Below are positions 31,320 to 34,465 of a DNA stretch of 36,201 nucleotides, piece after piece. The DNA comes from Candidatus Azambacteria bacterium (GTDB taxonomy: Bacteria > Patescibacteriota > Minisyncoccia > UBA10092), in the NCBI GenBank assembly GCA_030646675.1, contig JAUSKX010000029.1, positions 1 to 36,201 on the forward strand, in the 5' to 3' direction. The notes beneath the pieces are model-generated. The model was given only the letters and a program-made list of their open reading frames with translations, had not been told where the DNA came from and searched no databases. The position numbers and the translations under genes are program-made. Within the stretch, counting starts at the first letter, position 1. Each line of letters opens with the position of its first letter.

Positions 31320-31718
31320 TTACTCCGTAGTAACACCGTCGAATTCCGGGCTGTCGGCTTCGGCTTCTTCTTTGGTGGTTCGGACAACGCCGCCTTTGTG
31401 GTGCGCCGGGGAATAAATGGTATATAGTTTCAAATCTTCCGCGCCGGACACGTTGATAATATTATGCCGGGCGCCGGCCGGCACGACAATAACCGAGCCA
31501 TTTTCAAGATTGTATTCATTGCCGTCAATTACGCATTTCCCCTGTCCTTTTTCAAAACGAAAAAATTGGTCATTGTCCGTGTGGACTTCCATCCCAATTT
31601 CTTCATTGGGTTTCAAACTCATCAATACCAACTGGCTGTGCCTTCCGGTATATAACACCTTGCGGAAATCAGTATTTTCTAAAGTCTCTTTTTCAATATT
31701 CGCGTTAAATCCTTTCAT
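31320..31718 (-). CDS. Cupin domain-containing protein
   Basis: EIGMEVHTDNDQFFRFEKGQGKCVIDGNEYNLENGSVIVVPAGARHNIIN. Confidence 0.93.
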   Translation of the reverse strand: MKGFNANIEKETLENTDFRKVLYTGRHSQLVLMSLKPNEEIGMEVHTDNDQFFRFEKGQGKCVIDGNEYNLENGSVIVVPAGARHNIINVSGAEDLKLYTIYSPAHHKGGVVRTTKEEAEADSPEFDGVTTE

Positions 31719-33631: not shown

Positions 33632-34030
33632 TTATTTGTTTAGATAAGTAATAGTGAGCTGCAAAACGGTAGCAAATGAAACCCAAAGTAAATATGGGAT
33701 TTGAATATAAGCAATCCAGCGCGCGTGCGGATAAATGGCCGCCATTGCCCAAATAAGCGTGCCTAAAATTAATAAAATATCAATCGCCGCTAATAAATTA
33801 TTTTTGAGCCCGAATTGCAAATAAGTGAAAGAAAAATTGAAAATAAGATTTAAAATAAACGGCAAAGCGACCAAAAACGGAATTTGATTCCGCCAAGCCA
33901 TATAAAATACCTTACCGAAAGAAACTGCAATTAAAATATAAAGAAAAGTCCACACCGGACCGAAAAGCCACGATGGCGGCGCCCATGTGGGCTTTATTAA
34001 AGTCGAATACCAACCATACGCGCTGTTCAT
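33632..34030 (-). CDS. tspO: TspO/MBR family tryptophan-rich sensory protein
   Basis: WYSTLIKPTWAPPSWLFGPVWTFLYILIAVSFGKV and five TM helices. Confidence 0.93.
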   Translation of the reverse strand: MNSAYGWYSTLIKPTWAPPSWLFGPVWTFLYILIAVSFGKVFYMAWRNQIPFLVALPFILNLIFNFSFTYLQFGLKNNLLAAIDILLILGTLIWAMAAIYPHARWIAYIQIPYLLWVSFATVLQLTITYLNK

Positions 34031-34058: not shown

Positions 34059-34096
34059 ACAACACTCTCACATTCTGCAGAATGTGAGAGTGTTGT
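34059..34096. promoter_or_regulatory. 38-bp perfect palindrome upstream of tspO
   Basis: ACAACACTCTCACATTCTGCAGAATGTGAGAGTGTTGT. Confidence 0.8.
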
Positions 34097-34374
34097 TAGT
34101 TGGGAAAGGTTTTAATAAACTTACAAAAGGTCTTGCCGTAAGGCGAAAGAGAATGAGCGACTTCCCTGCCCTGATATTTTTTATCAACCAAGCCGGCCTG
34201 AACTAATTTTCTGGTATGTTCGGAAATAGTTTTCATATTACAATCCAGCCTATCGGCAATCTTTTCTAAACAAATGCCGTCATTACCGGCAATTAAATTC
34301 AGTATATCAATACGGCGGTGATTGGCCACGCCTTTGAAATGTCTTTCCAATTGTTTGGCAGTTTTTATCTCCAT
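34096..34374 (-). CDS. ArsR-like winged-helix transcriptional regulator
   Basis: RIDILNLIAGNDGICLEKIADRLDCNMKTISEHTRKLVQAGLVDKKYQGREVAHSLSPYG. Confidence 0.88.
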   Translation of the reverse strand: MEIKTAKQLERHFKGVANHRRIDILNLIAGNDGICLEKIADRLDCNMKTISEHTRKLVQAGLVDKKYQGREVAHSLSPYGKTFCKFIKTFPN

Positions 34375-34399
34375 ATACCCATACTACAATATTATTACA

Positions 34400-34433
34400 A
34401 ACACTCCAACATTCTGCAGAATGTTGGAGTGTT
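34400..34433. promoter_or_regulatory. 34-bp perfect palindrome upstream of ArsR-like gene
   Basis: AACACTCCAACATTCTGCAGAATGTTGGAGTGTT, same core as 34059-34096. Confidence 0.8.
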
Positions 34434-34465
34434 GTGAATGGGAAAATGCAGGAGTGTTGTGAATG
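34426..34465. repeat. Direct repeat of operator half-site
   Basis: ggagtgttgtgaatg at 34426-34440 and 34451-34465. Confidence 0.75.

Follow-up and report, generated by a model that had tools for sequence, protein, structure and literature searches.

The DNA analyzed here, referred to as the window, is a stretch of 36,201 nucleotides from Candidatus Azambacteria bacterium. In it, a small ArsR-like gene located upstream of tspO is bracketed by two long, closely similar perfect palindromes, and the question arises whether these are the private operators of an autoregulated repressor that also controls tspO, as the initial annotation had proposed, or copies of something more widespread. The features concerned are the following.

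33632..34030, (-) strand: tspO, 132 aa, the next gene downstream of arsR (Pfam TspO_MBR, E 1.6e-29)
34059..34096, no strand: 3' copy of the palindromic element, a perfect 38-bp palindrome with half-site ACAACACTCTCACATTCTG, overlapping the last base of arsR
34096..34374, (-) strand: ArsR-like winged-helix gene, 92 aa, without conserved metal-binding cysteines (Pfam, alignment, AlphaFold/Foldseek)
34391..34396, (-) strand: AATAAT, a -10-like hexamer that lies 20 nt from the centre of the dyad and presumably belongs to the arsR promoter (sequence)
34400..34433, no strand: 5' copy of the palindromic element, a perfect 34-bp palindrome with half-site AACACTCCAACATTCTG, upstream of arsR and over the -35 region
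34434..34465, no strand: degenerate extra half-site region, with AATGCAGGAGTGTTGTGAATG at 34445-34465 (direct repeat family D2)

The structural claims of the initial annotation were reproduced: both palindromes are exact, their 32-bp cores carry the same two changes in each arm with the symmetry left intact, and the additional direct-repeat half-site further upstream is present, being 90% identical over 21 nt to positions 34420-34440. No other perfect palindrome longer than 16 bp occurs in the window, and among 200 windows simulated with a first-order Markov model the longest palindrome measured 16 bp in the median and never more than 26 bp. The 34-bp palindrome ends 26 bp ahead of the arsR start. 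The 38-bp palindrome does lie upstream of tspO, as had been stated, but it abuts the arsR stop codon, and since base 34096 is common to both, the palindrome belongs at least as much to the arsR 3' end as to the tspO leader. The palindrome-arsR region gave no Rfam match above the gathering score. A cupin gene (31320-31718) is also located near arsR, and in the genome G209 a cupin gene directly adjoins the arsR unit (L092).

The 92-aa product is predicted to have the ArsR/SmtB fold. It matches Pfam HTH_5/HTH_20 (30.1 bits for HTH_5 at a cut-off of 22) and scores 48.9 bits with NCBIfam HTH_metalloreg, which is below the cut-off of 55; its AlphaFold model (pLDDT 87) retrieved CzrA, HlyU, CadC and SmtB in a Foldseek search, with TM values of 0.7-0.87 for CzrA, CadC and SmtB. 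No cysteine is conserved across the alignment of 29 homologues, in which no metal-binding Cys/His site was recognized. According to their recognition helix, the ArsR proteins form three groups (NFKTIS[EQ]HTR, NEKTIGEHTRR and NFKTASEH[LI]RR), and these groups also differ in dyad type (ACATTC, ACATCC/ACATACC and CTATTC).

The idea of a private operator pair did not survive the search of the host genome and its relatives for the palindrome. The dyad AnAACATTCnnACATTCTnnAGAATGTnnGAATGTTnT represents a dispersed repeat family in the relatives, the very outcome that the initial annotation had named as a refutation. It was detected with a degenerate core pattern in 95 of the 384 genomes searched within the class, with 1-17 copies per genome at unrelated loci, while the reversed control pattern gave no hits in the same 384 genomes. 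Further copies are present in Uhrbacteria, Kiritimatiellota, Lentisphaerae/Verrucomicrobia and Phycisphaerae, and none was found in 2.9 million viral contigs. The host itself has three copies in the genome sequence covered (several small contigs were masked), the third one being located inside cysS. A highly fragmented Phycisphaerae MAG (G390, L369-L377) contains 19 near-identical copies of the dialect TCTAAC-TA and no recognized arsR. Searches of the open-access literature brought up neither the element or its peptide nor a mobile unit made of ArsR and palindromes, and as far as this literature goes the ~36-bp element is previously undescribed.

The relation of the repeat to arsR was assessed with homologues collected by protein search alone, the palindromes being ignored, which yielded 67 distinct loci at 35-100% identity. 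A strong dyad (match at 13 or more of 17 positions) was found upstream of arsR in 70% of the loci, downstream in 70% and on at least one side in 88%, as compared with 9.5% of random stretches from those loci, a control that itself contains elements; the weaker loci inspected have decayed inverted repeats. Judging from sequence, bracketing from both sides is nearly universal among the arsR homologues. The downstream copy runs into the end of arsR, and at several loci the stop codon TAA lies inside the copy, with the TAA-making change present in both arms. tspO adjoins arsR in only 6 of the 67 loci; elsewhere the 3' copy is followed by msrA, endonuclease III, PDDEXK nuclease, UvrD helicase and other genes (named by eye; many neighbour names were read from translations, others come from Pfam or PDB), at L107 it is present though the following gene is convergent, and in G257 the arsR unit is located between atpH and atpA. 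Dedicated control of TspO is thus not supported, as the 3' copy is there whatever gene follows. At the other end of the gene, -10-like hexamers are most frequent, over 56 arsR loci, at a distance of 20-21 nt from the middle of the 5' dyad, which puts this dyad over the -35 region, and the AATAAT of the window fits the peak distance. Given this fixed spacing, autorepression of arsR via the 5' dyad seems likely, so that the proposed autoregulated regulator of TspO retains its putative autoregulatory promoter site and loses its private operator pair. In the ArsR tree, a clade of Patescibacteria sequences includes the two from Kiritimatiellota (support 0.92), whose loci have the same dyad dialect, which speaks for transfer of the unit between phyla; from this nesting, the patchy distribution and the changing neighbours we infer that the arsR unit moves between genomes and phyla.

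A plain regulon would be one alternative account of these data: the dyads would be ArsR-family operators, the dispersed copies selected regulatory or stoperator-like sites, and arsR-tspO an autoregulated operon. The position of the 5' copy and the co-variation of the ArsR recognition region with the dyad agree with it, and by eye some copies stand ahead of stress- or repair-type genes (tspO, msrA, nudix, endonuclease III). The distribution of the other copies does not. Among 238 elements, 67 bracket arsR, 28 lie in coding sequences, and 91 tandem, 27 convergent and 9 divergent copies are intergenic; the convergent copies thus outnumber the divergent ones (27:9, p 0.004), and the proportion of solitary copies with a stop within 50 bp was 74/145 versus 37/109 for starts. 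Since solitary copies shun promoters and sit mostly at gene 3' ends or in genes, they behave as insertions, not as operators. The heterogeneity of the downstream genes, the copies lodged within the coding sequences for housekeeping enzymes, most of which use a single frame, and a symmetric covariation that extends even to flank position -1, which is free to vary between loci of one genome, also weigh against a plain regulon, and we regard it as unlikely.

As many as 22 of the 28 intragenic copies are read in one frame, encoding HSNIL[QEK]NV[GR]M (peptide QHSNIL-NVGM), and the host genes of such copies include those for CysRS, FBA, MurC, MurD, MurE, MurG, PGK, GltX, YchF, PrmC, TsaD, MnmA, PurL and TspO. 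Set against PDB homologues, MurD is longer by 13 residues precisely where the element lies; the surplus is ~19 residues in MurC, ~16 in GltX and ~11-14 in PGK. In CysRS, FBA and TspO the element occupies a variable loop that exceeds that of relatives by just 0-6 aa; these three cases therefore do not prove exact insertion, and no precise boundary of an insert emerged when FBA and TspO were compared. The third copy of our host (C7:99-134) comprises a 16-bp core within a near-palindrome with one arm mismatch, is in frame in cysS and encodes QHSNILQNIGVLKK. At the same place, cysS of the same-genus genome G004 and of the same-family genome G007 contains perfect but different palindromes (AACACTCTGACATTCTCGAGAATGTCAGAGTGTT and CAACATTCCAACATTCTCAAGAATGTTGGAATGTTG), and cysS of five other relatives has no element. 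Unrelated inverted repeats were noticed in the same CysRS loop of G001, G003 and G006 (L053, L055 and L054; ATGTATTAATACAT, GGCGCGGCCGGCCGCGCC and CAGTAGCGAAG..CTTCTGCTACTG). The host cysS is split over two contigs, and its two parts (G000:C3:23200-23279 and G000:C7:1-98; L059, L036) overlap at 69% protein identity just before the palindrome, which suggests strain variation or an assembly break at the site. Three TspO genes from different families (L082, L169, L302) have the element in one and the same loop, where LFLVWK/R is followed by HSNIL, which suggests that the gene was transferred together with its insert or that the site is a preferred one. Among the loci compared, none qualified as a clean empty site bearing a target-site signature, flank -1 displaying inverted symmetry and no direct duplication; G004 was considered as an empty site and rejected, since the interval between the same flanking genes is unrelated there, has its own palindrome and lacks arsR and tspO.

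Across genomes, the repeat follows the regulator. At least one copy is present in 59 of 81 arsR-positive versus 36 of 303 arsR-negative genomes (OR 20, p 3e-26; the test ignores phylogeny), and five or more copies in 23 of 81 versus 2 of 303, phylogeny again being ignored; the near-complete genomes G196 and G079 have many perfect copies and no recognized arsR. ArsR distance correlates with the distance of the 5' dyad (Mantel r 0.70) and of the 3' dyad (0.72), and the two dyads correlate with each other (0.81; 0/2000). The comparison of variants within genomes shows that presumed new copies carry the dialect of their own genome's arsR unit: for 54% of solitary copies, an arsR-bracketing copy of the identical variant is present in that genome, with 18.5% expected when bracket sets were shuffled among genomes (0/2000).

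The initial annotation had further suggested that the dyad itself is selected or subject to a correcting process. Since the first palindrome detector required symmetry, covariation was recounted without this requirement, using a pattern of 26 fixed positions only, on 238 unique elements. At the two free dinucleotide positions the arms agree with each other in 87% and 83% of the elements versus 49% in shuffled sets (1000 shuffles), and they do so with many different symmetric dinucleotides. Flank -1 matches in 51% versus 30% (maximum 40% in 1000 shuffles) and differs from locus to locus, even within one genome. Beyond -2 there is no excess over chance, that is, the symmetry ends ~2 bp outside the 32-bp core; the longer locus-specific symmetric extension, striking by eye, was accordingly discarded as chance. 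This symmetric covariation at several positions, along with that between ArsR and the dyad, bears the suggestion out: the dyad as such would be selected or would be the form that is copied, and template-switch correction at hairpins would also do.

On these grounds we consider it fairly probable that the ArsR-like protein is an autorepressor whose palindromic site became, or rides on, a mobile repeat resembling RPE and REP sequences. The palindrome-arsR-palindrome segment of ~0.4 kb would then be one unit, and the palindromes of the window would be copies of a mobile repeat with a perfect dyad of ~36-38 bp. Most likely, a dimer of the ArsR-like protein binds the dyad; the 5' copy, centred on the -35 region, would serve for autorepression, and the 3' copy would be a part of the unit and not a dedicated tspO operator. 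Comparison of genomes indicates that copies spread from, or together with, arsR units to unrelated loci, in most cases to the 3' ends of genes and, if this is tolerated, into the reading frames of essential genes. The dyad would stay symmetric because it is the dyad, as a dimer-binding site or a hairpin intermediate, that is recognized and propagated. In such a system the repressor would hold the place that the transposase has in REP systems. It speaks against this reading that the ArsR-like protein lacks a catalytic domain and thus cannot alone account for movement. A stronger version would make the ArsR-like protein itself, with no transposase belonging to it, responsible for copying its palindrome, for keeping it symmetric or for its retention, e.g., through attachment to cruciforms or hairpins at replication forks. 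This version appears doubtful to us.

The presumed mobile repeat tied to a repressor shares features with several known systems. Mycobacteriophage L5 stoperators are repressor-binding sites scattered in many copies over a genome and matched to one repressor. The element resembles them in its many scattered putative sites and a single matching repressor, and it differs from them in that stoperators are short, asymmetric and phage-borne. With the ArsR/SmtB autorepressors CzrA, SmtB, SdpR, HlyU and NolR it shares the winged-helix fold and an inverted repeat, here a putative operator, over the gene's own promoter; conserved metal- or sulfur-sensing residues are lacking, in contrast, the ~36-bp perfect dyad stands on both sides, and the site is a dispersed repeat. 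RPEs are palindromic repeats located between genes and in frame in conserved protein genes, their mechanism of movement being not known (PMC2229807). Our element is likewise found both between genes and in frame in conserved protein genes, but RPEs are 105-146 bp long and Rickettsia-specific, whereas the element is ~36-38 bp long, occurs in Patescibacteria and PVC bacteria and is tied to a repressor gene. In REPtrons, a RAYT/TnpA-REP gene is bracketed by REPs that are also scattered elsewhere, and repeat and protein co-evolve (PMC8266576, PMC3733652). Short palindromes that flank one gene and are also scattered, and repeat-protein co-evolution, recur in our case; the bracketed gene, however, encodes an ArsR-fold regulator and not a Y1/HUH transposase, the copy number is low and many copies are intragenic. 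The element thus works like a REPtron in architecture and like an RPE in targets, and it is a member of neither, as there is no Y1 transposase nearby, no GTAG/CGTC tag (the flanks of 235-238 elements contain no conserved tetranucleotide), and size and hosts are different.

An ordinary REP- or MITE-like repeat, moved in trans by a transposase, would have arsR units as frequent passengers, or its arsR-side copies would have been co-opted as operators. The element does resemble REP and RPE in its size, its palindromic form, its place at the 3' ends of genes and its in-frame insertion (PMC3733652, PMC2229807), and arsR-negative genomes with copies exist. Such a repeat does not predict the bracketing of nearly all arsR homologues, nor the tracking of ArsR sequence by the dyad and the own-genome dialect. 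A RAYT/IS200 source found no support, as 4 of 15 high-copy or related genomes lack Y1_Tnp and no element lies within ~1.5 kb at 20 Y1_Tnp loci. We therefore hold a purely trans-mobilized repeat to be quite unlikely. That the copies are RNA hairpins, i.e., bidirectional terminators or 3'-end stabilisers under transcript-level selection, is highly improbable: the window palindromes are predicted to fold into perfect stems (-26 and -22 kcal/mol) and many copies lie right after stop codons and between convergent genes, but the window copies have no T-tract and no intrinsic terminator was called at either, the conserved primary sequence and the half-site repeats go beyond terminator needs, and copies are found in frame in genes and, as the 5' copy, at the arsR promoter.

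It has long been asked by what route RPEs and similar palindromic elements come to lie in frame within essential genes, and we know of no candidate protein for this. Here, an intragenic palindrome family is statistically tied to one small predicted DNA-binding protein that co-varies with the repeat, which offers a concrete protein-DNA pair, and this in Patescibacteria, a group about whose regulation and mobile DNA little is known. The element also accounts for the otherwise puzzling presence of QHSNIL-NVGM inserts in their essential enzymes. If ArsR-driven copying were true, a regulator gene with its two dyads, ~0.4 kb in all, would make up a new type of mobile element, and an exceptionally small one.

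Several minor observations concern the arrangement of such units. In L177 (G201:C9:1831-4981) six elements within 3.2 kb separate successive genes, including arsR and tspO, which gives the locus the look of a string of cassettes. In G071 an unrelated 28-bp perfect palindrome (TAAATGGGAAAACCGGTTTTCCCATTTA) occurs twice (L012:1266-1293 and 2959-2986), enclosing the arsR unit and two more genes. Finally, very distant ArsR-like genes (28-34% identity) in L388 and L123 are bracketed by other palindromes (ATTCGCTCATTCGCACGAATGAGCGAAT; CTATTCTCTAATTCGCGCGAATTAGAGAATAG), so that bracketing may extend to a much wider family of regulators.
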